Below, in pieces: positions 23,206 to 40,678 of a stretch of DNA of 63,501 bases. The number at the start of each line of letters is the position of its first letter. Within the stretch, counting starts at the first letter, position 1. Origin of the DNA: Elusimicrobiota bacterium (GTDB lineage: Bacteria; Elusimicrobiota; Elusimicrobia; UBA1565; UBA9628). The position numbers and the translations under genes are program-made. The stretch is from assembly GCA_003151975.1 (NCBI GenBank), contig PLZD01000061.1:4120-67620 (forward strand), written 5' to 3'. The notes under the pieces were generated by a model. The model was not told where the DNA came from, searched no databases, and worked only from the letters and a program-made list of their open reading frames with translations.

Positions 23206-23691
23206 ATGGCTTCTTACGCAATGTATTTCGCGGGCGTCGTCGCCTGTGTTTTCGCGGTGCTGATGTTCCTCAGCCGGTCTCTCTACACGAGCGCCGTGTG
23301 CCTTCTCGTCGTCCTTTTTCAGGCCGCCGTTTTCTTCTTTTTCTCGGGCGCCCCGATGCTCGCTTTCCTGCAGATCATGATCTACGCCGGGGCCGTTATG
23401 GTGCTGATCGTCATCATGATCATGGCCGCCGGCCACGAAACGTCGTCGGGAGCCGACGCTTTGCCCTTGCCCAAGCCCTTGGCTATGATCGCGGTTCTGA
23501 TCCCGTTGATCGAGACGGGCGTGCTGCTCTGGCGAGGCGACCTCGCGGCGGGGACGACCGGCGGCGCGATGTCGGCGCAAGCCCAGCTTGGAACCGTGCT
23601 CTTCAAGCAATATGCGCTCGCGACTGAAGCCGTGACCGTTTTGATGTTTCTCGCGGGCCTTGCCATCATCGAGCGGAGAAGCGACAAATGA
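23206..23691 (+). CDS. nuoJ: NADH-quinone oxidoreductase subunit J
   Basis: 161 residues, five membrane helices. Family hallmarks include SRSLYTSAVCLLVVLFQAAV and the IYAGAVMVLIVIMIM helix carrying the pi-bulge region of NuoJ/ND6. Part of the membrane arm of complex I, which couples NADH oxidation to proton pumping. It is the first gene of a 16-gene overlapping unit, instead of nuoA as in the usual order. Confidence 0.93.
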   Translation: MASYAMYFAGVVACVFAVLMFLSRSLYTSAVCLLVVLFQAAVFFFFSGAPMLAFLQIMIYAGAVMVLIVIMIMAAGHETSSGADALPLPKPLAMIAVLIPLIETGVLLWRGDLAAGTTGGAMSAQAQLGTVLFKQYALATEAVTVLMFLAGLAIIERRSDK

Positions 23692-23984
23692 CGATGGCGG
23701 TCTGGGGGACGACTCTATTCCTATTTGGGGCCGGCCTGGCCATGGTCATCGCGCGGCGCCAGCTGATCGCGATGCTCTTGGGACTTGAGCTCATGATCAG
23801 CGCGGTCAACATCGCCATCGTCTACCACGCGGGCTTGTTCTCGGACGCCGAGGCTCTCGCCGCGGTCCTGCTGATCCTGGCGGTCGCGGCCGCCGAGGCC
23901 GTCGTGGGACTCTCTTTGATTCTCAAGGTCTATCAATCGGGGCGGCCAGTCGATTCGGCGCGCCTACAGGAGCTGCACGGATGA
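23688..23984 (+). CDS. nuoK: NADH-quinone oxidoreductase subunit K
   Basis: 98 residues, three helices. The conserved Glu is in LLGLELMISAVNIAIV and a second acidic site is in AAAEAVVGLSLILKVY, both needed for proton translocation in the family. The start overlaps nuoJ's stop by ATGA. Confidence 0.93.
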   Translation: MTMAVWGTTLFLFGAGLAMVIARRQLIAMLLGLELMISAVNIAIVYHAGLFSDAEALAAVLLILAVAAAEAVVGLSLILKVYQSGRPVDSARLQELHG

Positions 23985-25849: not shown

Positions 25850-27267
25850 AGCTGCTGACGATTCTCTGGGCTTTGCCCGCGGCCGGCGGTCTTCTCGCGC
25901 TGCTGTCCGGGCGCAAGAGTCGCGAGGTCTCGTTGTTCGTCGCGATCCTCGCGCTGATCGCGAGCGCTTTGCCCTTCAAAGACTTGTCCGCTCTCTCCTC
26001 CCTCGCCGAAACGGGCCCGTCGTGGCCCATCGGCATCAGCTACTCTCTCGGGCTCGACGGTCTGACTTTAGGGCTTTGCGCGCTGACGGCGTTCTTGACG
26101 ATCGTCTCGCTGCTCGGATCATGGAAGCAGGATCTTTCGACGGGCTTCTGGGCGTCCTTCTTGTTCCTTGAGTCCGCGCTCATGGGCGTGTTCCTCGCGC
26201 GCGATTTATTTTTCTTCTACATTTTCTGGGAGGCTTCGCTGATCCCGATGTTCTTCATCATCGGGATTTGGGGCTCCGACGGCCGCAAGCACGCCGCCGT
26301 CAAATTCTTCTTGTTCACTTTCTTCGGCAGCTTGTTCCTGCTGGTCGGTCTGCTCGCCTTGATTACGCAGCGCTACAACGTCACGGGCATCTGGACTTGG
26401 GACATGGCCCAGCTTCACGGCGGCGCCTCGGGCCCGGCGGCCTTGGCGACTTTCGCGGCGCTGATCGTGGGATTTGGCGTCAAGGTGCCGATCGTGCCGC
26501 TGCACACTTGGCTGCCCGACGCGCATACAGAAGCTCCCGCGGCGGGCTCGATCATGCTGGCCGGCCTCATGCTCAAGATGGGCGTTTACGGCATACTGCG
26601 CATCGCGATCCCGGCGTTTCCTGAGCTGAGCCGCTCGCTTTTGCCCTGGCTCGGCGGCATCGCCGCCGTCAACGTGATCTACGGCGCGCTGTGCGCGATG
26701 GCGCAGTCCGATCTCAAGCGCCTCGTCGCGTATTCCAGCATCGCGCATTTGGGTTTCTGCCTGCTCGGGATATTCTCGGGCACCGTCGAGGGCATCACCG
26801 GCGGCAGCCTTCAGCTGATCAATCACGGCCTGACGACCGGCGCGTTATTCTTGATGGTAGGTTTTCTCTACGAGCGCTCTCACCGCCGCGGCCTTTCCGA
26901 TTTCGGCGAGCTCGCGGGACGCGCGCCCTGGCTGACCTTCTTTTTCGGCTTTTCCGTGTTCTCCTCCATCGGCCTTCCCGGCCTCAACGGCTTCGTTGGG
27001 GAATTCATGTCGCTCGCCGGCATGACGCGCGCCTTGCCGACGCTGGCGTTGGTGGGCGTGGCGGGCGTGACCTTGGCCGCCGCTTATCTCCTTCCCGCCT
27101 ACCAGGCCGTGTTCTGGGGCGCGGCGGGGCCGAGCTCCGTGAGTTCACACGTCGACGATCTTGATTTCCGTGAGCGCGCTTTGCTGTGGACTCTTTCGGG
27201 GCTCATGCTCGCGATCGGGCTTTTTCCCGGGCCGTGGCTTAGGCTCGTCGCGGGGGGGCTGCAATGA
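25846..27267 (+). CDS. nuoM: NADH-quinone oxidoreductase subunit M
   Basis: 473 residues. The ATG at 25846 overlaps the nuoL stop and gives a normal first helix (MKLLTILWALPAAGGLLALL); the longer upstream frame is inside nuoL. Signature segments include FYIFWEASLIPMFFIIGIWG and LPDAHTEAPAAGSIMLAGLM. Antiporter-like proton channel of complex I. Confidence 0.95.
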   Translation: MKLLTILWALPAAGGLLALLSGRKSREVSLFVAILALIASALPFKDLSALSSLAETGPSWPIGISYSLGLDGLTLGLCALTAFLTIVSLLGSWKQDLSTGFWASFLFLESALMGVFLARDLFFFYIFWEASLIPMFFIIGIWGSDGRKHAAVKFFLFTFFGSLFLLVGLLALITQRYNVTGIWTWDMAQLHGGASGPAALATFAALIVGFGVKVPIVPLHTWLPDAHTEAPAAGSIMLAGLMLKMGVYGILRIAIPAFPELSRSLLPWLGGIAAVNVIYGALCAMAQSDLKRLVAYSSIAHLGFCLLGIFSGTVEGITGGSLQLINHGLTTGALFLMVGFLYERSHRRGLSDFGELAGRAPWLTFFFGFSVFSSIGLPGLNGFVGEFMSLAGMTRALPTLALVGVAGVTLAAAYLLPAYQAVFWGAAGPSSVSSHVDDLDFRERALLWTLSGLMLAIGLFPGPWLRLVAGGLQ

Positions 27268-28622
27268 GCGAGGCCATGTCGTCTCTCGTCGCACTTGGCC
27301 CGCAGGCGTGCCTCGCCGCCGGGCTTTTCTGCGCGCTGGCGTCCGGCATGATGATCAAGCTCCCGGCTTCTTTCTACCGCGCTTTGGTCGTCTTCGTTCT
27401 GATCTGCGCCGCGGTCCTCGCCGCGCTCGGCGCGCCGCAGTCCTTGCCGCCGCTCGGGCGCGTCGACGGCATCGGCATATCTTGGCAGTTCCTGTTTTAC
27501 CTCGGGGCCGTCCCCTACGCGCTGAGTCTCACCGATGACGAAGTTCCCGCGGCTCTCTTTCTGGGGAGCGTGCTGGGGATGGCGCTGCTGGCGGTCGCAT
27601 CGAACTTGCTGATGCTCTTCATCGGTCTTGAGTTTATGTCGCTGCCCGTCTACTTGCTCGTCTCGCGGGGCGGCGGGGGCACGGAGCACTCAGAAGAGGC
27701 CGCCGTGAAATATTTCTTCGCGGGAGGCGTGGCCGGTTCGCTTTTCCTGCTTGGCCTTGCGCTCTACTACGCCGCCACCCACAGCCTCGCGCTCGTCAGC
27801 AGCCAAGGCGCGCTGGCGGAAGCCGGCGTCGCTCTGATGGGCGCCGCGGCGCTCTTCAAGGTCGGCGCCGTGCCGCTGCACTTCTGGCTGCCCGACGCGT
27901 ACGAGGCCGCCTCGCCCGAGCTCTCGGGCTTCATGTCGACCTCGCTCAAGGCCGCAGGCTTTTTGCTGCTGATGCGCTTGATCGCGCTCGCGCCCGGCTC
28001 GGCGTTCGCGGCGAGCTTACCGGCGCTAGGAGCGCTGACGGCCGTCTACGGCGCGGTCTCCGCGCTGCGTCAGCAAAGCTTGCAGAGATTGCTCGCGTAC
28101 TCCTCGATCGCGCACGCGGGCTATTTGATCCTCGGCGTCGGAGCTTGGGCGGCGCAGGGCGCGCTGCCCATCGGTGCGTCCGCGATTTTCTTTTATCTTG
28201 CCGCCTACTTGTTCATGAGCAACGGCGCATTCGCCTTCCTCGCGGTCAGCGGGGCCCGCACGCGGGCGGACCTCAAGGGCTATGGAGCGGCCGAGCCGCT
28301 CAAGGCCGCGATGTTTGGAGCGCTCCTGCTGGCGCTGGCGGGCATTCCGCCGACGGCGGGTTTTCTCGCGAAGCTTTTGATTTTCTGGGAGGCGGTGAAG
28401 GCCGGCCTCTATTGGCCGCTCGCGGGCGCGAGCCTCGGCGCCTTGTTGTCCTTGGGCTACTACTTAGGTCTGATCCAGGATATGTTCTTTGAAGAGGCCG
28501 GCGCGCCGTTGAAGGCCTCGAAGGGAGCCGGATCGTCGGTCATCTGGGCGTGCGCTCTGCCGGCGGCCGTGCTCGGCTTGGCGCCGTGGCTCGTCGCGAG
28601 CCTGTCAGGGGTGCTCAAGTGA
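27264..28622 (+). CDS. nuoN: NADH-quinone oxidoreductase subunit N
   Basis: 452 residues, the third antiporter-like subunit. Shows LFIGLEFMSLPVYLLV, LHFWLPDAYEAASPELSGFM and LLAYSSIAHAGYLILG. ATG overlaps the nuoM stop. Confidence 0.94.
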   Translation: MSEAMSSLVALGPQACLAAGLFCALASGMMIKLPASFYRALVVFVLICAAVLAALGAPQSLPPLGRVDGIGISWQFLFYLGAVPYALSLTDDEVPAALFLGSVLGMALLAVASNLLMLFIGLEFMSLPVYLLVSRGGGGTEHSEEAAVKYFFAGGVAGSLFLLGLALYYAATHSLALVSSQGALAEAGVALMGAAALFKVGAVPLHFWLPDAYEAASPELSGFMSTSLKAAGFLLLMRLIALAPGSAFAASLPALGALTAVYGAVSALRQQSLQRLLAYSSIAHAGYLILGVGAWAAQGALPIGASAIFFYLAAYLFMSNGAFAFLAVSGARTRADLKGYGAAEPLKAAMFGALLLALAGIPPTAGFLAKLLIFWEAVKAGLYWPLAGASLGALLSLGYYLGLIQDMFFEEAGAPLKASKGAGSSVIWACALPAAVLGLAPWLVASLSGVLK

Positions 28623-28972
28623 GCGCTCTGGCGATCGGGCTCAATGTCGCGCTGACGTTGGTCGTCGTGACGGCCATGGCCAGCGCGGGCTGGCTGCTCG
28701 GACCCAAGCCGCGCCACGAGGGCGACGCGGACCTGCCCTACGAGACCGGCGAGCGGCCCATCGCGCCCGCCGTCGACCGCATGGCGGTTCTCTTCTATCG
28801 CTTCGCCGTCTTGTTCGTCGTTTTCGACGTCGATCTCGCTTTCCTTTTGCCGTGGGCGCTGGGCCGCCGAACCATGGACTTCGCGCAGATGGCGACGATG
28901 TCGGTCTTCGTCGCCCTGGTGGGATTCATGCTCGCGTATTTTTGGCGCAAGGGGGTGCTGGAATGCAGGTAG
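28619..28972 (+). CDS. nuoA: NADH-quinone oxidoreductase subunit A
   Basis: 117 residues, three helices, starting at a GTG that overlaps the nuoN stop (GTGA). The family pattern PYETGERPIAPAV...RFAVLFVVFDVDLAFLLPWA is clear. The Cys of the usual YECG loop is Thr here. In most bacteria nuoA opens the operon; here it is sixth. Confidence 0.92.
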   Translation: MSALAIGLNVALTLVVVTAMASAGWLLGPKPRHEGDADLPYETGERPIAPAVDRMAVLFYRFAVLFVVFDVDLAFLLPWALGRRTMDFAQMATMSVFVALVGFMLAYFWRKGVLECR

Positions 28973-29439
28973 ACGATTACGTTCCCGCGGGCACGATCGC
29001 GACCCAACTCGAAGCGGCGCTCGCCTGGGGCCGGAAGTATTCGCTCTTCAACTATCCGTTCGTCACGGCCTGCTGCGGCATGGAGTACATGTCGGTGGCC
29101 GCCTCGCATTACGATCTGGACCGATTCGGCGCCGTGTTCCCGCGCTTTTCGCCGCGCCAGGCCGACGTGCTTATGGTCGTCGGCACGATCTCTCACAAGA
29201 TCGCACCCGTCATGCGCCGCATCTACGACCAGATGGCCTCGCCCAAGTGGGTCGTGGCGTTCGGCGTCTGCACCTGCACGGGCGGCTTCTACAACAATTA
29301 CTCGACGGTGCAGGGCATCGACACGATCCTGCCGGTCGATCTCTACATCCCCGGCTGCCCGCCGCGTCCCGAGATGGTGATTCAAGGAATGATGATGCTG
29401 CAGGAAAAAATTCAGAAGCAGGCCGGGAAAAATAGATGA
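28963..29439 (+). CDS. nuoB: NADH-quinone oxidoreductase subunit B
   Basis: 158 residues. Ligands of the terminal N2 cluster are present: the tandem Cys in VTACCGMEYM, Cys in GVCTCTGGFYNNY and Cys in YIPGCPPRPEMV. The ATG at 28963 gives the expected N terminus and overlaps nuoA by ten bases. It forms the quinone-site module together with NuoD and NuoH. Confidence 0.95.
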   Translation: MQVDDYVPAGTIATQLEAALAWGRKYSLFNYPFVTACCGMEYMSVAASHYDLDRFGAVFPRFSPRQADVLMVVGTISHKIAPVMRRIYDQMASPKWVVAFGVCTCTGGFYNNYSTVQGIDTILPVDLYIPGCPPRPEMVIQGMMMLQEKIQKQAGKNR

Positions 29440-29924
29440 TCCCCGCGGAGATCAAGCGCGTCGAGGCCGCCAAGAATTTCGAGGAGCTCAAATCCTTGAA
29501 GGACGCCGGCTACAACGTGCTCGTTGACCTGACCGCGATCGACTATCAAGGCCATCCGAACCCGCCGATCAAGGAGCGCTTCGACGTCGTGTACGAGATC
29601 ATGAAGCTCGATGCGGCCACGGGCGACGACAAGGGACGTGTCGAAGTTCGCTGCGGCGTCGACGAGAAGCCCGTGCTGCGGTCCGCCGCGCCCCTATGGC
29701 CGATCGCGGACTGGCTTGAGCGCGAGGTTTGGGACATGTTCGGCGTAGGCTTTGCCGATCGCGAAGGCATCAAGCGGCTCTTGATGTACGAAGAATTCGA
29801 GGGACATGCTTTGAGAAAGGATTATCCGATCACCAAGCGCCAGCCGCTGATTGGGCCCGAATCGGGAGAGCTCAAGGACAGCCCGAGCTTCAATATCGTG
29901 CGGCCGACGATCAAGTACGAGTGA
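29436..29924 (+). CDS. nuoC: NADH-quinone oxidoreductase subunit C
   Basis: 162 residues, peripheral-arm subunit. The family signature is ADWLEREVWDMFGVGFADRE followed by RLLMYEEFEGHALRKDYP. Not fused to NuoD, which starts one base after this stop codon plus one spacer base. Confidence 0.94.
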   Translation: MIPAEIKRVEAAKNFEELKSLKDAGYNVLVDLTAIDYQGHPNPPIKERFDVVYEIMKLDAATGDDKGRVEVRCGVDEKPVLRSAAPLWPIADWLEREVWDMFGVGFADREGIKRLLMYEEFEGHALRKDYPITKRQPLIGPESGELKDSPSFNIVRPTIKYE

Positions 29925-29925
29925 C

Positions 29926-31245
29926 ATGAGAGAACAAAAGACGTACATGCTCAACATGGGCCCCGCGCATCCCGCGATGCACGGCGTCGTGCGCCTGCTC
30001 TTGGAATTGGAAGGCGAGAAGATCGTCAACACCGAAGTCGAGATCGGCTTTCTGCACCGCGCCTTCGAGAAGCACGGCGAGGCCGAGACCTGGAACAACG
30101 TCGTGCCTTGGACCGACCGCTTGAATTACGTCTCGCCTTTGATCAACAACGTCGGCTACTGCATGGCCGTCGAGAAGCTCGCGGGGATCACGCTGCCCGA
30201 GCGCGGTCAGTACCTGCGCGTGATCGCTTCCGAAATCTCCCGCGTGACCGACCATCTCACTTGCGTCGGCGCCTCGGCGATGGAGCTTGGCGCCTTTACG
30301 CCGTTTCTTTATTTGATCAAGGCGCGCGAATATCTTTATCAGCTCGTCGACCAGCTGACCGGCGCGCGCATCACGACCTCCTACACGCGCGTGGGCGGCG
30401 TGAAGGCCGACATGCCCGCCAATTTCCCCGAGCAGTGCAAGGAAGTCTTCAAGAAAGTCCGCGAGGCGATCTCCGACACCGACAAGCTTCTGACGAAGAA
30501 CCGCATCTTTATGGACCGCGTCGACGGCACGGGCATCATCTCGAAGGAAGACGCTCTGGCCTACGGCATCACGGGGCCGTTCCTGCGCTCGACCGGAGTC
30601 CCTTACGATGTGCGCCGCGCGCACCCGTACCTCGTCTACGATCAACTTAACTTCGAAGTGCCCGTCGGCACGAAGGGCGACAATTTCGACCGGTATCTTT
30701 GCCGCCTGGCCGAGATCGAGCAATCCTTGCGCATCCTCGAGCAATGCTTCGAGAAGATCCCGCAGGGAAAGCACTCGCTCGAGCCCAAGGAAATGAAGAA
30801 CGCTTTCGAATACCAGGACGCCGGCAAGCACGGCGAGACCGCGCTCTTGGCCAAGTACAAGGCCAAGGTCGACCAGACCTTGGCGGGCGGCCAGCGCGGC
30901 GATCGCCCGGACGTCCTCACGCAAGACCCGATCTTCGTCATGCCGGCCAAGGAAGACGCCTACGGCTCGATCGAGGGCCTCATGAACCACTTCGAGCTCG
31001 TGATGTGGTCGTGGGGCATAAAGATTCCCGCCGGCGAGTCGTACTTCGCCGTCGAAGGCGGCAACGGCGAGCTGGGTTTCCGCGTCGTCTCGTCGGGAGA
31101 CGACCGCCCGTGGCGCGTGCGCTGCCGCCCGCCGTGCCTGTTCATCATGGCCGCCTTGCCAAAGCTTTTGAACGGGAGCTGGGTCGCCGACGTGATCCCG
31201 ACCTTCGGCTCCGTCAACATGATCGCTGGAGAACTAGACCGATGA
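29926..31245 (+). CDS. nuoD: NADH-quinone oxidoreductase subunit D (49-kDa)
   Basis: 439 residues from ATG 29926. Quinone-site residues appear in NMGPAHPAMHGVVRLLLELE (conserved His) and in the Tyr-containing segment that follows. FRVVSSGDDRPWRVRCRPPC near the C terminus is typical. It is somewhat longer than usual, with an insert around residues 280-330 (KYKAKVDQTLAGGQRGDRPD region). It contacts NuoB near cluster N2. Confidence 0.95.
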   Translation: MREQKTYMLNMGPAHPAMHGVVRLLLELEGEKIVNTEVEIGFLHRAFEKHGEAETWNNVVPWTDRLNYVSPLINNVGYCMAVEKLAGITLPERGQYLRVIASEISRVTDHLTCVGASAMELGAFTPFLYLIKAREYLYQLVDQLTGARITTSYTRVGGVKADMPANFPEQCKEVFKKVREAISDTDKLLTKNRIFMDRVDGTGIISKEDALAYGITGPFLRSTGVPYDVRRAHPYLVYDQLNFEVPVGTKGDNFDRYLCRLAEIEQSLRILEQCFEKIPQGKHSLEPKEMKNAFEYQDAGKHGETALLAKYKAKVDQTLAGGQRGDRPDVLTQDPIFVMPAKEDAYGSIEGLMNHFELVMWSWGIKIPAGESYFAVEGGNGELGFRVVSSGDDRPWRVRCRPPCLFIMAALPKLLNGSWVADVIPTFGSVNMIAGELDR

Positions 31246-32987
31246 CGCCAGTCGCGACTCAAAAGGCGTTTACTTCCGAGCAGGAGAAAGTCCTGCAGGC
31301 TTGGACCACGGAGTATCCCTATCCGATCATGGGCCTGCTCGAAGCTTTGCGACAGGTTCAGCAGTGGAACCTTTGCATCCGCCCGGAGCACGAGGACTTT
31401 GTCGCGAATCTTTTTAAGACGACGCTGACGCGCGTCCACGAGCTTGTGACCTTCTTCCCGATGTTCACGACGGAACCCACGGGCCGCAAGCGCGTCGGCG
31501 TTTGCCACGGACTGTCGTGCACGATGGCCGGAGCCGAGAAGGCCTGTGCCTCCTTGGAGAAAAAGCTGGGAGTTTCTGAAGGAGTAACGACCAAGGACGG
31601 CGAGTACTCTTGGGAAGAGCTCGAGTGCATCGGCGCCTGCGAGCAGGCGCCCGCCTTCCAGATCAACGACGAGCTTCAAGGCCCCGCAACAGAAGAGTCC
31701 ATCGCCAAGCTTTCCGGTTCGCGTCGTCCCGTGATCTTGGGAGGAGAGAAGCCGCTCCTCACCAAGGATTTCGCCGACGCCGCGCTTCATACTCTCGAAG
31801 CCTACCGCAAGCACGGCGGCTACGAGGGCTGGAAAAAGGCGCAGGCGATGAGTCCGGCGGAGTTATCCGCCGAGGTCGTCAAATCCAACCTGCGCGGATT
31901 GGGCGGCGCGGGCTTCCCGACCGGCGGCAAGTGGGGCACGGTCCCTCCCGTGGAGAAGGCTCCGGAGCGCTACGTCGTGGGCAACTACGACGAAAGCGAG
32001 CCCGGCTGCTTCAAGGACCGCGTCCTCGGCGAGCGCTCGCCGCATCAGATTCTGGAAGGCCTGCTGATCGCCTGCCGCGCGGTGAGCTCCAAATGGGGCT
32101 TCATCTTCATCCGGGGCGAGTACGCCGCCCAAGATCGGATTCTTCGCAAGGCGATCGGGGAGCTTCAAATGTCCGGGCTGGCCGGGGAAATCAAGCTGCG
32201 CATCATGCGCGGCGCGGGCGCTTACATCTGCGGCCTCGATACCGCCTTGCTGGAGACGATGGAAGGCAAGAAGGCCTGGCCGCGCCAGCCTCCGCCGTTT
32301 CCGACGGTCGTGGGCCTCATGGGCAAGCCCACCGTCGTCAACAACATCGAGACGCTTTCCATGCTGCCGCACATCATTAAGAATGGGGGAGAGTGGTTCG
32401 CGAAACTCGGCGTGCCTCCCAACCCGGAGAAAAAAATTCCGGGCTCCGGCGGCACCGCGGTGTTTTCGGTCTCGGGCGACGTTGAGAAGCCCGGCATTTA
32501 CGAGGTCCCGCTCGGCACGCCCCTGCGCAAAGTGATTGATATGGCGGGGGGAGTCGAAGGCGGCAAGAAGCTCAAGGGCGCCATCCCCGGCGGCACCTCG
32601 GCGCCGCCGGTGACCGCCGCGGAAGCCGACGTTCCGCTCGATTTCGACAGCATCCGCACGGTCGGCTCGTTCATGGGCGCCTGCGGCATCATCGTTTTGG
32701 ACGAGACGCGCGACATGGTGGAAGTCGCGCACAACATCGAGCGCTTCCTCGCCCACGAGTCGTGCGGCCAATGCACGCCGTGCCGCGAGGGCAGCGAGTG
32801 GACGACGCGCATACTTGCGCGCGCGCTCGATGGGAAAGGCACTCCCGCCGACGCGCCGAACCTTCAGCGCATCGGCGAAAATATCACCGGCAAGGTCATC
32901 TGCGCGCTCGGCGACACCGTCGGGATGGTCACGCGCGGCTTCATGAAAAAATTTCCCGACGATTTCAAAAAGAGAATCCCCTCATGA
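31242..32987 (+). CDS. nuoEF: fused NADH-quinone oxidoreductase subunits E and F
   Basis: 581 residues in one uninterrupted frame, starting at an ATG that overlaps the nuoD stop. Residues 1 to about 150 are NuoE: a thioredoxin-like [2Fe-2S] domain with ligands in CHGLSCT (Cx4C) and CIGACE (Cx3C). Residues from about 185 are NuoF: RGLGGAGFPTGGKWG (FMN/NADH binding), GAGAYICGLDTALLETMEGK, and the N3 cluster motif ESCGQCTPCREG. There is no internal stop or ATG overlap between the two parts. It is the NADH-oxidising tip of complex I. Confidence 0.95.
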   Translation: MTPVATQKAFTSEQEKVLQAWTTEYPYPIMGLLEALRQVQQWNLCIRPEHEDFVANLFKTTLTRVHELVTFFPMFTTEPTGRKRVGVCHGLSCTMAGAEKACASLEKKLGVSEGVTTKDGEYSWEELECIGACEQAPAFQINDELQGPATEESIAKLSGSRRPVILGGEKPLLTKDFADAALHTLEAYRKHGGYEGWKKAQAMSPAELSAEVVKSNLRGLGGAGFPTGGKWGTVPPVEKAPERYVVGNYDESEPGCFKDRVLGERSPHQILEGLLIACRAVSSKWGFIFIRGEYAAQDRILRKAIGELQMSGLAGEIKLRIMRGAGAYICGLDTALLETMEGKKAWPRQPPPFPTVVGLMGKPTVVNNIETLSMLPHIIKNGGEWFAKLGVPPNPEKKIPGSGGTAVFSVSGDVEKPGIYEVPLGTPLRKVIDMAGGVEGGKKLKGAIPGGTSAPPVTAAEADVPLDFDSIRTVGSFMGACGIIVLDETRDMVEVAHNIERFLAHESCGQCTPCREGSEWTTRILARALDGKGTPADAPNLQRIGENITGKVICALGDTVGMVTRGFMKKFPDDFKKRIPS

Positions 32988-34504
32988 GCGAACCCAAGAC
33001 CGTCAAATTCAAGCTCAACGGCAAGGACATCGAGGCCAAGGAAGGCCAGCTCGTCATCGACGCGGCCAAGGACGCGGGCGTCGACATCCCGCACTACTGC
33101 TACCATCCGGGCCTCGGCACGCCGGAGAACCCGAAAGGCAATCCCGGCAACTGCCGTCTTTGCATCGTCGAGGTCGCGGGCGCGCCCAAGCCTCAAGTCT
33201 CCTGCCGCACGCAGGTCAAAGAAGGCATGGTCGTGGCCTCGGACTCGCCGGCGGCCAAGCGCGCCCAGCAATCTTCCCTGGAACTGCACCTCGTCAACCA
33301 TCCGCTCGACTGTCCCGTCTGCGACCAAAGCGGCGAGTGCGGCCTGCAGAATTACTACATGGAGATCGGCAAGTACGAGAGCTCGGTCCGCGAAGACAAG
33401 CTCCACAAGAACAAGCGCATCGTCGCGGGCCCTCACGTCATGCTCGACCAGGAGCGCTGCATCCTCTGCACGCGCTGCACGCGTTTCGTCGACAACGTGA
33501 CCAAAACCCACGAGCTCGGCATCTTCGGCCGCGGCCACAAGGAACACATCGATTTGGTGCCGGGCAAGACGCTCGACAATCCGTACTCCGGCAACGTCGT
33601 CGACATCTGCCCGGTCGGCGCGCTGACCGAAAGAGATTTCCGCTACAAAGTGCGCGTCTGGTATCTCGACGAGACCGATTCCGTCTGCCCCGGCTGCAGC
33701 CGCGGCTGCTCCATCTCCCTTCACACGAACACCAAGCGCCCGTGGCACAACGACGGCAAGCGCGTGGCGCGCATCAAGCCGCGCCACAACCCCGAGGTCA
33801 ACGGCTGGTGGATTTGCGACGAGGGGCGCTACGGCTACAAGAGCCTGGACGAGGATCGGCTCGGCCGCATCATGCGGCTCAAGGATCAGCGCCGCGAGCT
33901 CTCCTGGACGGAAGCTTTCGAGGAAGTGTCGTCCAAGCTTTCGAGCGCTAAGGGGCTCGCCGTCGTCGCTTCCGGCATGCTTTCGAACGAGGACTGGGCC
34001 GCGTTCAAGCCGCTCTTCGTCGACAAGCTGAAAGCGGAGCAAATCATTTTCACGCCGGAGCCGGACCAGCTCGGCGAGGAAGACGCGTTGCTGCGCAAGC
34101 GCGAGAAGGTTCCGAACCTGAAAGGCGCCGAAGTCCAGGGACTTAAGTCTTACTCATTCCCTGATCTCCGAACCGCGATCGAAAAAGGCGAGGTCAAGGC
34201 TCTCTATGTGATCGAACGCGATCTCACGAAAATCTGGGGGGAGAAGACGGAAGAGCTCTTGGCCAAGCTCGACCTCGTGGTCTTCCAGGGTCCGAATAAA
34301 ACCGCGACTGGCGACCTGGCGCACTACCGGCTGCCCGTCACGGCCTACGCCGAGGAAGAGGGGCACTTCACCAATTTCGAGGGCAAGGTTCAGGCTTATA
34401 AGCGCGCGCTCGAGCCGCTGGGCCAGGCTAAGCCGGACTGGGCGATCTTCGCCGGTTTGAGCGAGCATCTGGCCGGCGAGCGCCAGCGGGAGGCCGTGGC
34501 GTGA
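32984..34504 (+). CDS. nuoG: NADH-quinone oxidoreductase subunit G, short form
   Basis: 506 residues versus about 700-900 in many bacteria. The N-terminal ferredoxin part is complete: [2Fe-2S] ligands from PHYCYHPG to SCRT, His-ligated N5 cluster (HPLDCPVCDQSGEC), the CILCTRC...CPVGAL 4Fe clusters, and a CPGCSRGC...WWICDEG motif matching the off-path N7 cluster. The molybdopterin-oxidoreductase-like C-terminal domain, which has no redox role in complex I, is strongly cut down. The start overlaps nuoEF (ATGA). Confidence 0.93.
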   Translation: MSEPKTVKFKLNGKDIEAKEGQLVIDAAKDAGVDIPHYCYHPGLGTPENPKGNPGNCRLCIVEVAGAPKPQVSCRTQVKEGMVVASDSPAAKRAQQSSLELHLVNHPLDCPVCDQSGECGLQNYYMEIGKYESSVREDKLHKNKRIVAGPHVMLDQERCILCTRCTRFVDNVTKTHELGIFGRGHKEHIDLVPGKTLDNPYSGNVVDICPVGALTERDFRYKVRVWYLDETDSVCPGCSRGCSISLHTNTKRPWHNDGKRVARIKPRHNPEVNGWWICDEGRYGYKSLDEDRLGRIMRLKDQRRELSWTEAFEEVSSKLSSAKGLAVVASGMLSNEDWAAFKPLFVDKLKAEQIIFTPEPDQLGEEDALLRKREKVPNLKGAEVQGLKSYSFPDLRTAIEKGEVKALYVIERDLTKIWGEKTEELLAKLDLVVFQGPNKTATGDLAHYRLPVTAYAEEEGHFTNFEGKVQAYKRALEPLGQAKPDWAIFAGLSEHLAGERQREAVA

Positions 34505-35544
34505 GCCCCATCGACATTCTCGCCAAACTCTGGCCCCTGATCCTCGTCGCAAGCGCCCTGGGCTTCGGTCTTAATCTGGCGGGCCTGCTGGCCTACGCCG
34601 AGCGCAAGCAGAGCGCGATCATGCAGGACCGCATCGGCGCCAATCGCGCCTCGATCTTGGGCTTCAAGCTGTGGGGCCTGGTCACGATGGTCGCCGACGC
34701 GATTAAGATGTTCACGAAGGAAGATTTTATTCCCAAGGGCGCCAACAAAACCTTGCACGCGATCGCGCCCGTCGTCTCGCTGGGCTTCGCGCTCCTGTGC
34801 CTTGCGGCCCTCCCGTTCGGCGGCATGGTGGAATTCGCGGGCCGAACCTGGAGCCTGCAGCCCATCGAGAGCCCCGTCGGCCTCCTGTTCGTCCTGGCGA
34901 TGCTCGGCCTCGGCGTGCATGGCGTGATGATGGCGGGCTTCGCGTCGGGCTCCAACTACGGCCTGCTCGGCGGCCTGCGCGGCGCGGCTCAAATGGTCTC
35001 TTACGAGGTCTGCATGGCCGCGACCTTGGCGGGCCTCGTCTTCATTTATGGAACGCTGGACCTCCAGCAGGCCGTGCTTTGGCAAGGGCGGCACGTCTGG
35101 GGAATCTGCGTGCAGCCGCTGGGCTTTTTGCTTTTCCTCACGGCCGGCGCCGCCGAGACCAAGCGCGCGCCCTTCGATCTGCCCGAGGGCGAGTCCGAGA
35201 TCGTCGGATATTTCGTAGAGTACTCGGGCATGAAGATGGGCATGTTCATGATGACCGACTTTGTCGAATCGATCGTGCTCGCGGGCCTGATCACGACTCT
35301 CTTCCTCGGCGGCTGGCAGATCCCTTTTTACACGCCCGCGGGACTGATCGGAGGCGCGCTGATGCTGGCCTCCTTCGTCGGGAAGGTCCTCCTCGTGCTC
35401 TTCGTGCTGATGCAGATCCGCTGGACCTTGCCGCGCTTCCGCTTCGACCAGCTGCTGCACCTCGGCTGGAAAAACGTCCTGCCGCTGGCCCTGCTCAATT
35501 TTCTCGCGACGATTTGGCTGGTCTACGCGAGGACGCATTCATGA
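34501..35544 (+). CDS. nuoH: NADH-quinone oxidoreductase subunit H
   Basis: 347 residues, eight helices, GTG start overlapping nuoG. Signatures are AERKQSAIMQDRIGANRA, ETKRAPFDLPEGESEIVGYF and EYSGMKMGMFMMTDF. It builds the quinone chamber in the membrane. Confidence 0.95.
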   Translation: MSPIDILAKLWPLILVASALGFGLNLAGLLAYAERKQSAIMQDRIGANRASILGFKLWGLVTMVADAIKMFTKEDFIPKGANKTLHAIAPVVSLGFALLCLAALPFGGMVEFAGRTWSLQPIESPVGLLFVLAMLGLGVHGVMMAGFASGSNYGLLGGLRGAAQMVSYEVCMAATLAGLVFIYGTLDLQQAVLWQGRHVWGICVQPLGFLLFLTAGAAETKRAPFDLPEGESEIVGYFVEYSGMKMGMFMMTDFVESIVLAGLITTLFLGGWQIPFYTPAGLIGGALMLASFVGKVLLVLFVLMQIRWTLPRFRFDQLLHLGWKNVLPLALLNFLATIWLVYARTHS

Positions 35545-36071
35545 TCTCGGTCACGACGGTCCGCCGCCCGGCGCGCACCCTATTCGTTCAGATCTACTTC
35601 GTCGAGATTTTTAAAGGGCTGATGATCACCTTCCGGCACTTCTTCGTCAACCTGGCCAAGCACGCGCTGTACGCCGTCGGCCTGTCGAAGGAGTCCGGCG
35701 CCGTCACGATCCAGTTCCCCGACGTGCCGGCGATGCTGGGCTTGCGCGCGCGCACGCGCCACCGCCTGCTCAAGCGCGAGGACGGCACGCCGCGCTGCAC
35801 GGCCTGCATGTGCTGCGAAACGATCTGTCCCGCCAAGTGCATCCACATCGTGGCCGAGGATTCCCCGGACGTGCGCGTCGAGAAGCGCGCCAAGAGCTTC
35901 GACATCGATCTGGGCTTGTGCGTCTTCTGCGGCTACTGCGTCGAGGCCTGCCCGGTCGACGCGATCCACATGGACGCCAACCGCGTCGAACTCTCGGCCT
36001 ACTCGCGCAAGGACATGATCTGGAACATGCAGGAGCTGCTCGGCGATAAGAAGAAGGAGCCTTCCTCATGA
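35541..36071 (+). CDS. nuoI: NADH-quinone oxidoreductase subunit I
   Basis: 176 residues. Two [4Fe-4S] motifs of the CxxCxxCxxxCP type are present: CTACMCCETICP and CVFCGYCVEACP (clusters N6a and N6b). The N terminus has the amphipathic membrane-contact helix. It is the last complex I gene, and its stop overlaps the start of the diadenylate cyclase gene. Confidence 0.95.
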   Translation: MISVTTVRRPARTLFVQIYFVEIFKGLMITFRHFFVNLAKHALYAVGLSKESGAVTIQFPDVPAMLGLRARTRHRLLKREDGTPRCTACMCCETICPAKCIHIVAEDSPDVRVEKRAKSFDIDLGLCVFCGYCVEACPVDAIHMDANRVELSAYSRKDMIWNMQELLGDKKKEPSS

Positions 36072-36946
36072 TGGGCGGCGTCCTCAAGACCATCGGCATC
36101 GCCGACGTGCTCGACATCGCCTTGGTGTCGACTTTGATCTACGCCCTGCTCGTTTGGTTCAAGCGCACCAAGACCGCGTTCGTGGCGATGGGCCTCTTGA
36201 TGCTTGCCGTCGTCTACACGATCGCGCGCATCATGGGCATGTACATGACCGTTTGGATCTTCCAAGGATTCTTCGCGGTGCTGGTCGTGGCGATCGTCGT
36301 GATTTTTCAGGAAGAAGTGCGCCACATCTTCGAGCGCATCGCGGTCTGGAGCCTGCACGGTGGGGCCAACGAGAGCTCCTCTCCGAAGGAAGTCGAGATT
36401 CTCGTACATTCCGTCGACAATTTTGCGCGCGAGAAGATCGGCGCGCTGATCGTCCTGCACGGCCTCGACCCGCTTGACCGGCACGTCGAGGGCGGCTGGG
36501 AGCTCAACGGCGAGCTCTCCGAGGCGATCCTCGAGAGCATCTTCGACTCGCACTCTCTCGGCCACGACGGCGCCCTGCTCATCGAGCACGGCAAGGTCGC
36601 GCGCTTCGGCTGCCTGCTGCCGCTCTCGAAGGAGTATGCCAAGATGACCAACCTGGGCACGCGGCACACGGCCGCCCTCGGATTGGCCGAGCGCACGGAC
36701 GCCCTTTCGATCGTCGTCAGCGAGGAGAAGGGCACGATCTCGGTGGCCGAGCGCGGCGAGCTCAAGGTCATGCCCGACCTGCAGGCGCTGCAGGACATCG
36801 TCGAGCGCTTCTTCCTCGAGAAAGCTCCCAAGCCCACGGGCGAGAGCCTGGTGGGCTTTTTCACGCACAACACGCGGGAGAAGGCCATCGCGCTCGGCGT
36901 GTCGATCCTGATGTGGCTGTTCTTCATCGGCATCAACCCGCGGTGA
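36068..36946 (+). CDS. cdaA: diadenylate cyclase CdaA (c-di-AMP synthase)
   Basis: 292 residues. Three N-terminal membrane helices are followed by a DAC domain with catalytic motifs HDGALLI and GTRHTAALGLAERTDA (the DGA and RHR-type motifs). It converts two ATP to c-di-AMP at the inner membrane. Unusually, the C terminus ends in a further hydrophobic helix (AIALGVSILMWLFFIGI). It overlaps nuoI by ATGA, so it is translated from the complex I transcript. Confidence 0.93.
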   Translation: MMGGVLKTIGIADVLDIALVSTLIYALLVWFKRTKTAFVAMGLLMLAVVYTIARIMGMYMTVWIFQGFFAVLVVAIVVIFQEEVRHIFERIAVWSLHGGANESSSPKEVEILVHSVDNFAREKIGALIVLHGLDPLDRHVEGGWELNGELSEAILESIFDSHSLGHDGALLIEHGKVARFGCLLPLSKEYAKMTNLGTRHTAALGLAERTDALSIVVSEEKGTISVAERGELKVMPDLQALQDIVERFFLEKAPKPTGESLVGFFTHNTREKAIALGVSILMWLFFIGINPR

Positions 36947-37989
36947 AGACCTCCTTTCACGCGGCGCGGCTCATCAGCCTGCTCACCAAGCGCGGCAAGG
37001 AGCTCAGCCCGCTCACCATCCTGACGCACGACCATCCCGATCCCGACGCGCTGGCTTCCGCGTGGGCCTTGGCGCATCTCGCGCAGGGCCTGGGCAAGAT
37101 CCGCGCGCGGATCGTCTACGGCGGGATCATCGGCCGCGCGGAGAACCGGCTCATGGCCGAGCGCCTGCTCATCCCTGCGCATCCCCTGCGCAAAGGAGAG
37201 CTTCGCGAGGCCGCCCACGTGGCCCTCGTCGACACTCAGCCGCCCTTCCGCAATAACCGCTTCTCGCCGCGGGGCAAGCCCGACCTCATCATCGACCACC
37301 ATCCCCGCCACCCTGAAACTCAGGCGGATTTTGCGCTAATCGACGAGAGCGCGGGCGCCACCACGACGATGCTCGGCGAAGCCCTGCGCGCCTCGGGCCT
37401 CAAGGTCCCCCAGAAGCTCGCGACCGCGATCGTCTACGGCATCGGCTCCGAGACGCAGAACCTCGGCCGCGAGGCCACGCCGCGGGACATGGCGGTCTAC
37501 CAGGCTTTCTGGCCCAAGGCCAACATGAAAAGCCTTTGGAAGATTTCCTTCCCGCGCCGCTCGGCGAATTTCTTCGCCGACCTCGCTCGCGGGATACGCC
37601 ATGCCTTCACCGCGCGCAACGTAATCGGCGTCCACCTTGGGAACTTGCGGACGCCGGACCGCGTCGCGCAGATCGCCGACTTCCTGCTGACCCACGAGAA
37701 GATCTCCTGGTCTATCGTCACCGGCCGCTACATGGGACGCCTGCACGTTTCCCTTCGTACCTCGGACCCAGGAGGCGACGCGGGTCGCCTGCTCAAGCGC
37801 CTGCTCGGCGGCGGCAACCGCGGCGGCGGGCACGCGATGATGGCCGGCGGCTCCGTCGAGATCGGCCTCGACAAGCTCGAGGTCGACTGGCGGCGCGCCG
37901 AGGAGAAGATCGTCGCCGCTTTCCTAAATAGCCAGGGCATCAAGGACGCCGCTTCGCGCGTTTATCCGTTCCGGGCCGGATCGCTCTAG
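36943..37989 (+). CDS. DHH/DHHA1 phosphodiesterase, probable c-di-AMP or nanoRNA hydrolase
   Basis: 348 residues, GTG start overlapping cdaA. DHH motifs are ILTHDHPDPDALASAWALAH, VALVDTQPP and DLIIDHHPRH. The DHHA1 domain ends with GGGNRGGGHAMMAGG. There are no membrane helices or PAS domain, so it resembles stand-alone NrnA/DhhP proteins rather than GdpP. Its position right after cdaA suggests it removes c-di-AMP or its pApA product. That pairing is inference from context. Confidence 0.88.
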   Translation: MKTSFHAARLISLLTKRGKELSPLTILTHDHPDPDALASAWALAHLAQGLGKIRARIVYGGIIGRAENRLMAERLLIPAHPLRKGELREAAHVALVDTQPPFRNNRFSPRGKPDLIIDHHPRHPETQADFALIDESAGATTTMLGEALRASGLKVPQKLATAIVYGIGSETQNLGREATPRDMAVYQAFWPKANMKSLWKISFPRRSANFFADLARGIRHAFTARNVIGVHLGNLRTPDRVAQIADFLLTHEKISWSIVTGRYMGRLHVSLRTSDPGGDAGRLLKRLLGGGNRGGGHAMMAGGSVEIGLDKLEVDWRRAEEKIVAAFLNSQGIKDAASRVYPFRAGSL

Positions 37990-38495
37990 TGCGCGCGTCG
38001 CGGCTCGCGTTGGCCGCCGTTCTTCTTGGAGCGGCCTGCAAGTCGCATCCGCGCGGCCAGGCTCCCGAGGTCTCCGTTCCCGTCCTGCTTCAAGCGCCGA
38101 TGACCTCGCTCGGCTCTTTGAAAGAACTCAAGGGCGACGCCGTCGTGCTGGAATTCTGGGCGACGTGGTGCGGGCCCTGCGTCGAAGGTATCCCGGCGAT
38201 GAACAAGATGGTCGAGGCCTTCAAAGACCGGCCCGTGCGCTTTATTTCGGTGAGCAACGAGAACCGCGAGAAAGTGGAGGCCTTCCTGCAGAAGCACGAG
38301 ATGAAGGCCTGGATCGGCATCGACAACGAAGCCGCCTCCGAGCGGGCTTTCGGCGTGCACGGCATCCCCGCGATTTTTGTGATCGACCAGTACGGCCGAA
38401 TCTGGCACAACGTCTCGCCGAGCTTTTTCTACAAGTCCGACGTCGAGGACGCCATCAACGCCAAGCCGCCCGAAGCGAGCGCGCCCCGGTCTTAG
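37989..38495 (+). CDS. thioredoxin-like lipoprotein (TlpA/ResA family)
   Basis: 168 residues, GTG start sharing a base with the previous stop. A lipoprotein signal ends in LLGAAC. The redox motif WATWCGPC sits in EFWATWCGPCVEGIPAMNKM, and a cis-Pro is found in HGIPAIFVID. It is a membrane-anchored periplasmic thiol-disulfide reductase, possibly for cytochrome or envelope protein maturation. It is the last gene of the 16-gene nuo unit. Confidence 0.88.
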   Translation: MRASRLALAAVLLGAACKSHPRGQAPEVSVPVLLQAPMTSLGSLKELKGDAVVLEFWATWCGPCVEGIPAMNKMVEAFKDRPVRFISVSNENREKVEAFLQKHEMKAWIGIDNEAASERAFGVHGIPAIFVIDQYGRIWHNVSPSFFYKSDVEDAINAKPPEASAPRS

Positions 38496-38617: not shown

Positions 38618-38878
38618 TTAGCGCAGGATGCGCTTATAGAGGAAGGCCGCGGTCAGAACGCCGATGATGCTGAGCAGGTTGAAGTGGAAGATGCAGCCGA
38701 AGGTCAGGTCCACGATGCGCAAGTCCAGATTGGTCGGGTGCAGGCCGGCCGAAATGTCGTTGGCCAGAAGGTCGTGGACCTTGCCCGAGGGCGCTATCGC
38801 CCCGATGAACTTGCCCAGGAATGATCCGAGCACGGCGCCCGCGACGATGACGGCCGCGACCTCGAACCAGGACTTCAA
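38618..38878 (-). CDS. small membrane protein, DUF4321-like
   Basis: 86 residues from a TTG that overlaps the etfA stop (TTGA). Two hydrophobic helices (WFEVAAVIVAGAVLGSFLGK and IIGVLTAAFLYKRIL) flank the DLRIVDLTFGCIFHFNLLS segment, the typical shape of DUF4321 proteins. Function unknown. It is the last gene of the etf transcript. Confidence 0.7.
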   Translation of the reverse strand: MKSWFEVAAVIVAGAVLGSFLGKFIGAIAPSGKVHDLLANDISAGLHPTNLDLRIVDLTFGCIFHFNLLSIIGVLTAAFLYKRILR

Positions 38879-39870
38879 GCGGCGGCGGCGCCCTTGCGGG
38901 CCTTGATCTCGGCCGTGATCAGCGGCAGCAGCTCGTTGGCGTCGCCTTGGATGGCGATCGAGGCCATCTGCATCATGGGGCACTCCGGATCGGGATTGAT
39001 CGCGACAATCGTTCCCGACGAGGACATGCCGGCCAAGTGCTGGATCTGGCCGGATATGCCGCAAGCGATGTAGAGCTTAGGGCGCACCGTGCGGCCGGTC
39101 AGGCCGACCTGGTGGCGATACGGGATCCAGCCCGAATCGACGACGGCGCGCGAGGCGCCAACGGCCGCGCCGATGGCGTGCGCGAGATCGCGGATGGCCT
39201 TGAAGCCGTCGGCGTTGCCCAAGCCCCGTCCGCCGGAGACGATCTTCTCGGCGGCGCCGAGGTCGACTTCGTTGGATTCTTCGGCCTGAAAGCTGACGAA
39301 CTCGATCCGGGCGAAGCCGGGGTTGAAGGCGACGGAGACGGTCTCGCCGGTGCGGCCGGCCTGCTTTTCGGCGCGCGGGTAGGTCATCGGCTGAACCGTG
39401 GCGATCTGCGTGGCGGAGGCGAACTGGACCTCGGAGATGATGTTGCCCGAGAATTGCGCGCGCTTGGCCTTCAGGCCCGTGCCGTTCTGGTAGACTTCGG
39501 TGGCGTCGGCGGCCAAGCCGGCCTTAAGCTTGACGGTGAGCCTGGCGCCGAGCGACTTGCCGGCGACGGTGGCCGCGATGAGGACCTTGCCGAATTTTTC
39601 CTTCTCGACGAGCTCGGCGACGGCTTTGGCGTGCAGCTCGTCGTTGAAGTTCTCCAAGGACGCGTGCTCGATGACGAAGACCTTGTCGGCGCCGCGCTCG
39701 ATGAACTCTTTGGCGTAGTCAGAGACTTTCGATCCGAGCACGACGGCGGCCAGCGGTTCCTTGAGCGTGTCGGCCAGCGCCCGGCCCGCGGTCAAAAGTT
39801 CGTACGCGGCGGGGATGAGCTTGCCGCGCTGGGTGAGGCCTACGACGAGGATGCCTTTGTTGGATTCCAT
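38875..39870 (-). CDS. etfA: electron transfer flavoprotein alpha subunit
   Basis: 331 residues. The C-terminal FAD domain is conserved: SGGRGLGNADGFKAIRDLAH, VVDSGWIPYRHQVGLTGRTV and LYIACGISGQIQHLAGMSSS followed by AINPDPECPM. Together with EtfB it carries electrons from flavin dehydrogenases towards the quinone pool. No ETF dehydrogenase or acyl-CoA dehydrogenase gene is in the window, so the partner is elsewhere. Confidence 0.95.
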   Translation of the reverse strand: MESNKGILVVGLTQRGKLIPAAYELLTAGRALADTLKEPLAAVVLGSKVSDYAKEFIERGADKVFVIEHASLENFNDELHAKAVAELVEKEKFGKVLIAATVAGKSLGARLTVKLKAGLAADATEVYQNGTGLKAKRAQFSGNIISEVQFASATQIATVQPMTYPRAEKQAGRTGETVSVAFNPGFARIEFVSFQAEESNEVDLGAAEKIVSGGRGLGNADGFKAIRDLAHAIGAAVGASRAVVDSGWIPYRHQVGLTGRTVRPKLYIACGISGQIQHLAGMSSSGTIVAINPDPECPMMQMASIAIQGDANELLPLITAEIKARKGAAAA

Positions 39871-39874
39871 GGTA

Positions 39875-40678
39875 TTAAATGAGCTTCCTTTCGATGAGGA
39901 TGTCGACGAGCTTCTTGGCCTTCTCCGCCGCGCTGGCTCCTTCCACCTTCATTCCCGCGGGGCGGGCCGGAGGGGTCGAGCACTTCGCGACGAGACTAGG
40001 GGCGAGCTCGGAAAGTTGTGCGGCGTTGAGGCCGAGGTCGGACGCGGTCCACTTCGGCACGGCCGCTTTCTTGGCGGCCATCTTGCCTTTGAGCGAGGGC
40101 AGGCGCGGCTCGTTGATCTCCTTGGTCGTGGAGAGGCAGGCCGGGAGCGTCACCTTGAGCACGTCGGTGCCGTCTTCCATCATGCGCCAGACGACGGCGA
40201 TCTTGTCGTCGATCGAATCGATCTTCTTGACCGAGACGACGCCGGGCCAGTCCAGCCAGGCCGCGGTCTCGGCGCCGACCATGCCGGAGTTGCCGTCGTT
40301 GGTGTTCTTGCCGAAGAGCACTATCGTGACGGGCTTCTCGGCGTTGAGCTTCTTGATGGCGGCGGCGAGCGCGAAGCTCGCCGAATACGCGTTGTCGCCG
40401 TCGAACTCGGGGCCCGAGACGATGACGCCGGCGTCGATGCCGCGCGAGATCGCGTCGCGCACCACGCTTTCCGAAGAATCTGGACCTACGGTCAAGGCCG
40501 TGGCCGTCGAGCCGGGGATGCGCTCCTTCAAGCGCACGGCCTCTTCGACCGCGTACTCGTCGAAGGGATTCATCGCGTAGACGAGGCCCGAGCTCTTGAT
40601 CTTGCCGGTCGCGGGGTCGACGCTGACGTTGGTCGTGGTGGGAGTGTTCTTGACGCAGACGACGATGTTCAGTGACAT
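39875..40678 (-). CDS. etfB: electron transfer flavoprotein beta subunit
   Basis: 267 residues. AMP-binding ETF-beta features are IVVCVKNTP, INPFDEYAVEEAVRLKE-like sequence (MNPFDEYAVEEAVRLKER) and VLFGKNTNDGNSGMVGAETA. A GGAG Shine-Dalgarno precedes the ATG. Four bases separate it from etfA. The tRNA-Tyr gene lies 20 bases upstream of its start on the same strand. Confidence 0.95.
   Translation of the reverse strand: MSLNIVVCVKNTPTTTNVSVDPATGKIKSSGLVYAMNPFDEYAVEEAVRLKERIPGSTATALTVGPDSSESVVRDAISRGIDAGVIVSGPEFDGDNAYSASFALAAAIKKLNAEKPVTIVLFGKNTNDGNSGMVGAETAAWLDWPGVVSVKKIDSIDDKIAVVWRMMEDGTDVLKVTLPACLSTTKEINEPRLPSLKGKMAAKKAAVPKWTASDLGLNAAQLSELAPSLVAKCSTPPARPAGMKVEGASAAEKAKKLVDILIERKLI

Follow-up and report, generated by a model that had tools for sequence, protein, structure and literature searches.

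Why do genes for the synthesis and breakdown of a second messenger stand at the end of an operon for a respiratory proton pump? The question is raised by a 63,501-nucleotide (nt) stretch of DNA from an Elusimicrobiota bacterium (contig PLZD01000061.1, positions 4,120 to 67,620; the whole stretch is called the window below), in which the complex I gene nuoI is followed by cdaA, coding for a CdaA-type diadenylate cyclase, and by dhh, coding for a DHH-DHHA1 phosphoesterase, the putative enzymes of cyclic di-adenosine monophosphate (c-di-AMP) turnover. A first analysis limited to the letters of the window (the sequence-only reading) had proposed that this arrangement links respiration to the level of the messenger, and had pointed to an extra membrane helix at the C-terminus of CdaA. 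This extra helix is the main new point of the locus. The explanation we favour, and hold to be fairly probable when taken as a whole, is that the only detectable c-di-AMP pair of the genome is carried as the tail of the complex I operon, with a CdaA that has kept, out of a CdaR-like part, the helix only. This explanation needs no direct link with respiration; judged from the gene arrangement, such a link is possible.

The cdaA gene (36068..36946, + strand) encodes a protein of 292 residues, made of three N-terminal transmembrane helices, a DAC domain and the C-terminal transmembrane helix. Its Pfam matches are CdaA_N (34.9 bits, cut-off 23.8) and DAC (121.3 bits, cut-off 27). The gene overlaps nuoI (35541..36071, +, recognised by its Pfam 4Fe-4S domains) by 4 nt (ATGA), and GGAG is located 8 nt upstream of its ATG; translation might also begin at the in-frame ATG of 36071. 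In turn, dhh (36943..37989, +, GTG start) overlaps cdaA by 4 nt (GTGA). Both overlaps, mentioned in the sequence-only reading, are exact in coordinates. The C-terminal helix was also found again, with a hydropathy of 1.95 over residues 273-291, and as a helix at residues 269-288 (codons 36872..36931, +) in the AlphaFold2 model. The predicted local distance difference test score (pLDDT) of this segment is only about 63-73, and for this reason no claim on its packing is drawn from the model. The chain ends at residue 292, four residues beyond the helix, and the YbbR family (PF07949) has no match in it.

The CdaA alignment retrieved relatives from metagenome-assembled genomes (MAGs) titled Elusimicrobia or Elusimicrobiota, many of them from groundwater, and 57 genomes were searched, 47 of which had a CdaA relative. 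Below, f1 is the family of the window (cdaA in 33 of 34 genomes, G018 being without), f2 a sister family with cdaA, f3 a sister family without it, and f11 a more distant family. In f2 and f11, CdaA goes on for about 100 residues after the same helix. Six of these tails were searched for YbbR: two scored over the Pfam cut-off (23.2 and 25.4 bits, for a cut-off of 22.3), two scored under it, and two gave no match. At E≤0.01, YbbR was present in 17 of the 50 rows of an alignment including other phyla, and a Pfam search of a sample of the phylum found it in 3 of 198 genomes; as most fused tails stay under the cut-off, such Pfam counts are lower bounds. Among 80 loci, 46 have a long CdaA (384-575 residues) and 32 a helix-only CdaA, one being cut by a contig end and one having a broken frame (L096, cut by a contig end, was left out of the count of helix-lacking members). 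The fused forms come from MAGs titled Elusimicrobia, Omnitrophota, Deltaproteobacteria/Syntrophales, Dadabacteria, KSB1, Bacteroidetes and others, across several phyla, and the helix-only form was found in f1 alone. As side observations, the fused proteins of L149, L120, L123 and other loci from MAGs with Deltaproteobacteria titles reach 480-575 residues, enough for a second YbbR region or a further domain, and among the 50 alignment rows an OmpA domain was found in one and a match to DUF748 in one.

Conservation of the helix itself is marked. All 40 helix-only rows share N268, E271, K272 and W283, the last two residues being present in all 48 fused rows as well, and mean pairwise identity is 0.55 in the tail, as against 0.42 and 0.30 in the helix and the linker preceding it. 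The helix therefore seems to be kept by selection. By comparison with the fused relatives, the window helix is of the CdaR type, matching the helix that stands before their YbbR region. A tree was built with the part of the protein preceding the helix (94 of 121 rows, after removal of near-duplicates and of L153, whose frame is broken to 148 residues). Helix-only rows and YbbR-bearing rows were strongly clustered in it, and when the helix-only rows were forced into one clade the likelihood was above that of the free search, the constraint not being rejected (approximately unbiased test, p-AU 0.61). The simplest reading is that the YbbR part was lost once, in the f1 ancestor. Three points weigh against the favoured explanation. 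The tree cannot alone separate a loss of YbbR from a gain, its outgroup branch being long; the fused tails owe their YbbR label to weak scores; and such a low sensitivity of the model also weakens the finding that YbbR has no match at E≤10 in the window genome. With the root unsettled, one may suppose instead that the helix is no remnant of CdaR, either because a helix-only CdaA came first and YbbR was gained later, or because the helix arose separately. The sharing of K272 and W283 by both forms makes a separate origin unlikely, and several phyla have fused forms, against one family for the helix-only form; we regard this alternative as quite improbable.

Is this CdaA a working cyclase? Its DAC model has 36% identity with B. 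subtilis CdaA, with a root-mean-square deviation of about 1.3 Å, and the protein keeps the DGA motif, the first R and the H of the RHR motif, and S218/E220. It is a putative diadenylate cyclase. The first R of RHR is invariant in the lineage rows, and loss of the first R abolished the activity of Leptospira CdaA, according to excerpts of PMC12974146; the essential arginine would correspond, by our own alignment of the motif, to R199. Other observations go in the opposite direction. The RHR motif reads RHT in the window, position 201 (36668-36670) being T, and a second R is found at this position in 0 of 88 lineage rows, which have S, T, A, L or M. Moreover, changing RHR into AAA abolishes the activity of M. 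tuberculosis DacA (PMC3328451). Distant CdaA rows are biased at position 201, where one of the two scan patterns demanded T, A or S, and the f1 and f2 rows, obtained from the whole-genome search, are free of this bias. Finally, the protein scores below the NCBIfam TIGR00159 cut-off (181.8 vs 188.8), as do a fused f2 member and a member with a Deltaproteobacteria title, and we therefore call it a CdaA-type variant rather than a TIGR00159 equivalog. A plain CdaA of 260-271 residues, lacking the helix tail, occurs in five further genomes of the class; judged by reading, a phosphohexomutase (glmM-like) gene comes next, and folP- or ftsH-like genes come before in most of them.

The second gene of the pair encodes a protein with Pfam matches to DHH (37.3 bits, cut-off 28.1) and DHHA1 (35.7 bits, cut-off 25.9), in which the catalytic motifs HDHPDPD, D97, DHH and GGGH are all present. 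Its structure model has a pLDDT of 92.7, and the best fold matches are the GdpP catalytic domain with 5′-phosphoadenylyl-adenosine (pApA; E 7.9e-20) and Rv2837c with pApA (6.0e-18). Against a function in c-di-AMP breakdown, NrnA nanoRNase structures match nearly as well (S. aureus NrnA/Pde2 at E 9.6e-16, Bacillus NrnA at 1.3e-15), so that the fold leaves the substrate undecided. Proteins of the DHH-DHHA1 kind overlap in substrates, and this one is the sole DHH protein found in the genome. It may thus be mainly an NrnA-like nanoRNase or phosphatase of 3′-phosphoadenosine 5′-phosphate (pAp), with the adjacency to cdaA being secondary. We find this rather unlikely, as the protein misses the cut-off of the NCBIfam NrnA model NF053633 by far (18 bits vs 350), GdpP and Rv2837c rank first among the fold matches, and dhh abuts cdaA, upstream or downstream of it, in several phyla. 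Indeed, among the 46 fused loci a dhh relative lies directly downstream of cdaA in 11 (gap ≤13 nt; MAGs titled Elusimicrobia, Omnitrophota and Planctomycetales) and directly upstream in 5 (gap ≤20 nt; MAGs titled Bacteroidetes, Omnitrophota, Deltaproteobacteria and Verrucomicrobiia). Pairing in both gene orders is the best evidence that the DHH protein acts on the product of CdaA, or on the breakdown product of the latter, and a c-di-AMP/pApA hydrolase is its probable function. The fused CdaA of L074, a locus from a further family of the phylum, has a different DHH protein after it, NrnA-like by reading.

We then consider what else of a c-di-AMP system the window genome contains. A single DAC protein and a single DHH-family protein were found in it, and a PgpH-type 7TM-HD hydrolase was not found. 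With one enzyme of each kind, and neither YbbR nor PgpH detected, cdaA and dhh are probably the whole c-di-AMP turnover system of the genome. As for its use, the strongest sign in the family comes from predicted c-di-AMP riboswitches (RF00379), present in 6 of 34 f1 genomes. In G007, G011 and G024 they stand before relatives of the potassium importer KimA (PDB match at E 1.5e-55). In G019, G023 and G026 (genus g9; L160-L162) RF00379 was seen before a gene for a BBP2-type beta-barrel porin, an unusual target. A point against c-di-AMP control in the window species is that no RF00379 was found in its own genome, including at its KimA-like genes. Candidate targets in this genome are a potassium channel containing TrkA_N and TrkA_C domains, and a pair of neighbouring KimA relatives that share 67% and 57% identity with the KimA relative behind the riboswitch of G011. 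TrkA_C and KimA are c-di-AMP targets in other bacteria, and by analogy potassium transport would be the likeliest output. Separately, an nhaA-I RNA (RF03057, 48.9 bits, gathering threshold 37) was observed immediately upstream of the start of a KimA-like potassium transporter gene on contig 56 of the window genome (L188:2960-3011, - strand), at the place where some relatives carry the c-di-AMP riboswitch. The nhaA-I RNA is an alkali-metal-ion riboswitch.

The linkage with complex I was examined next. In the window, the complete operon nuoJKLMNABCD-(EF fused)-GHI (23206..36071, +; labels by homology and order) is compact, each pair of genes from J to I overlapping or being 1 nt apart as the open reading frames (ORFs) are read. 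A consensus scan of the + strand from nuoI to the gene after dhh gave no sigma-70-like site, which is weak evidence as promoters of these organisms may differ from the consensus; with its overlapping frames, the pair may be cotranscribed with nuo in the window genome.

Surroundings of cdaA were read for all 33 f1 genomes having it. The gene nuoI is upstream of cdaA on the same strand in 31 of them, covering all 12 genera. An order kept through the whole family is not the accident of one genome, and the linkage seen in the window is thus conserved. Downstream, the distance from cdaA to dhh could be tested in 31 genomes: it is at most 20 nt in 29 of them, with exactly -4 in 16, and amounts to 112 and 337 nt in the remaining two; start codons were chosen by script as those nearest to the start in the window, so that gaps of a few nt are approximate. 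The distance from nuoI to cdaA varies more: it is at most 60 nt in 21 of the 31 linked genomes, 259-260 nt in 2, 586-757 nt in 4 and 1530-1697 nt in 4, and this total of 10 genomes with 259-1697 nt in between weighs against the strength of the linkage. Among the fillers of these gaps are an ATPase of the AAA_14/DUF4143 kind in G001, a radical SAM-B12 protein in G009 and a similar ORF in G015, small ORFs in G028, G030 and G033, and, in G014, an ORF on the opposite strand without a Pfam match. Frames of nuoI and cdaA overlap in 14 of the 31 genomes, by exactly 4 nt in 8 and by 1 nt in 4, and in those genomes shared transcription is implied.

Does this conservation reflect a function? In a functional coupling to respiration, the c-di-AMP enzymes would be made together with the proton pump, signalling capacity would track respiration, and potassium uptake would be tuned to membrane potential. 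The family-wide order agrees with it, as do the KimA-linked riboswitches of three f1 genomes. So does G013, where complex I appears to be split, with NuoD on contig 15 and nuoGHI-cdaA-dhh together on contig 10, both sites being internal to their contigs; this arrangement favours some reason to stay. (In genus g6, to which G013 belongs, nuoD was also seen on a contig other than that of nuoI-cdaA in G005, G022 and G025.) In S. aureus, excerpts of PMC5836111 report suppressors of dacA in respiration genes, a dacA dispensable under anaerobic conditions, and a raised membrane potential in a gdpP mutant. On the other side, the linkage was observed in one family only. In f2 and f11, cdaA is not adjacent to nuo, although f2 has complex I (NuoD at 65-69% identity, away from cdaA, in six genomes), and no nuo gene was seen at any of the 46 fused loci of f2 and other groups, within flanks read up to 10 kb, many contigs being short. 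In f3, a full-length NuoD at 70-71% is present in 3 of 4 genomes searched, and no CdaA match was found in any of the 4. Besides the long gaps and the opposite-strand ORF of G014, two f1 genomes, G017 and G029, keep the cdaA-dhh pair without nuoI upstream. G017 has a flippase-like gene, named by reading, close to cdaA; nuo genes are missing between the two, and NuoD is on another contig, so that the pair must be expressed there without nuo; this arrangement favours mere neighbourhood.

The outer flanks of the block are conserved too. A flippase-like gene is near nuoJ in 10 of 14 genomes with a readable nuoJ side (16 were fetched), and in 17 of the 24 f1 genomes that could be tested a convergent etfA comes after dhh; in the window, etfA and etfB (38875..40678, - strand, labels by homology) form this downstream border. 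The adjacency may thus have arisen once and been kept by slow rearrangement, without any functional link, a possibility that is compatible with our favoured explanation and on which we are evenly divided. The partly kept flippase-nuo-cdaA-dhh-etf borders and the cdaA of G017, which manages without a nuo operon, agree with such an inheritance; the better conservation of nuoI-cdaA (31 of 33) than of the two other borders, and the frames overlapping in 14 of 31 genomes, fit it less well. The nuoI-cdaA junction is the best-kept join of the conserved block to an outside function, without being uniquely conserved. Given the one-family range, the two exceptions, the long gaps and the partly conserved outer flanks, inherited gene order explains much of the linkage. 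Of the link between respiration and c-di-AMP, what stood is the position of the pair at the end of the complex I operon throughout the family, and the functional coupling itself appears doubtful.

Returning to the explanation we favour, the cdaA and dhh genes would form the tail of the complex I operon and be coupled to it in translation. The protein belongs to a lineage of CdaA fused to a CdaR-like part, consisting of a transmembrane helix and of YbbR outside the membrane; in f1, YbbR would be gone and the helix would stay. This fourth helix may pack on the N-terminal helices of CdaA itself, and replace in cis the contact made by the CdaR helix in Firmicutes, making assembly of the cyclase independent of a separate regulator or of a sensor domain outside the membrane. 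In the cytosol, the DHH enzyme would hydrolyse c-di-AMP, pApA or both, co-translation would set the ratio of synthase to hydrolase, and the signal would act on potassium transport. A bolder proposal is that the f1 protein is a natural minimal CdaA-CdaR, in which the helix and not YbbR is what the cyclase needs, and that the same evolutionary step put the pair under complex I, expression of the pump replacing the lost sensor input. We consider this unlikely.

How does the locus compare with known systems? In Firmicutes, CdaR is anchored by one transmembrane helix, its YbbR domains lying outside, and contacts CdaA by way of transmembrane helices, as stated in excerpts of PMC10243994 and PMC8573169; the former also describes CdaA and CdaR in one chain in some streptococci, and the latter reports CdaR both as an activator and as a repressor of CdaA, by a mechanism called unclear for Firmicutes. 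The window protein resembles the Firmicutes CdaA (DacA)-CdaR(YbbR)-GlmM module by its three-helix CdaA_N part, by its DAC domain with DGA, RH and SEE motifs, and by a single helix of the CdaR type, a possible membrane contact of CdaA. It differs in that its cluster lacks cdaR, glmM and YbbR, the helix being in cis at the C-terminus of CdaA, in having RHT for RHR, a DHH hydrolase as second gene, and complex I as operon partner. The genes after cdaA are dhh and a tlpA-like gene in the window, or dhh and etf in f1, instead of cdaR and glmM. As in the streptococcal fusion, so far as it is described in these excerpts, CdaA is continued by the CdaR transmembrane helix in one chain, but f1 has no YbbR domain. 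The DHH protein shares fold and catalytic motifs with the GdpP catalytic domain, Rv2837c/CnpB, DhhP, Pde2 and TmPDE; unlike these, it is a soluble, stand-alone protein, with 16-22% identity to the compared structures, and its gene overlaps cdaA. The operon holds the nuoA-N set of complex I operons, and departs from the usual ones by its order, JKLMN-ABCD-EF-GHI, by a fused nuoEF, and by its extension with cdaA-dhh.

With the helix kept and YbbR apparently discarded, f1 offers a natural deletion experiment separating the two parts of CdaR, which could be copied in a model cyclase. The range of CdaA-CdaR fusions is extended far beyond streptococci, and cdaA-dhh appears as a simple two-gene turnover unit. 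A literature search combining c-di-AMP and Elusimicrobi returned no study of c-di-AMP signalling in the phylum. In the literature listings and paper excerpts covered, which do not include Galperin 2023 on DAC domain architectures, no CdaA-YbbR fusion outside streptococci was recognised.

The remaining genes are of lesser interest. A TlpA/ResA-like thioredoxin-fold gene (37989..38495, +) overlaps dhh by 1 nt; its product has Pfam AhpC-TSA/Redoxin matches and is ResA-type by PDB sequence match. The sequence-only reading had described a TlpA-like lipoprotein after the phosphodiesterase: the gene is there, but the lipoprotein label is weak, as its LGAA-C stretch is without the usual residue which the lipobox consensus has at -3. 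A conserved linkage of this gene was considered and rejected, no tlpA match being found near cdaA in the regions of relatives searched; dhh has it as neighbour in the window genome only, and its position beside dhh is incidental. In G001 and G002, dhh-etfA gaps of roughly 900 nt contain other ORFs. At the other end of the block, an efflux set of TolC-like, HlyD-like and MacB-like genes, named by reading, lies between the flippase-like gene and nuoJ (18900-23048), and was seen upstream of nuoJ in none of the relatives read. Within the operon, nuoE and nuoF are apparently one fused reading frame of ~580 residues (31239-32987). Near the end of etfA, a small membrane protein, which we take to be of the DUF4321 kind, is encoded at 38618-38869 (- strand), and a partial relative of it is present at the same site in G003.

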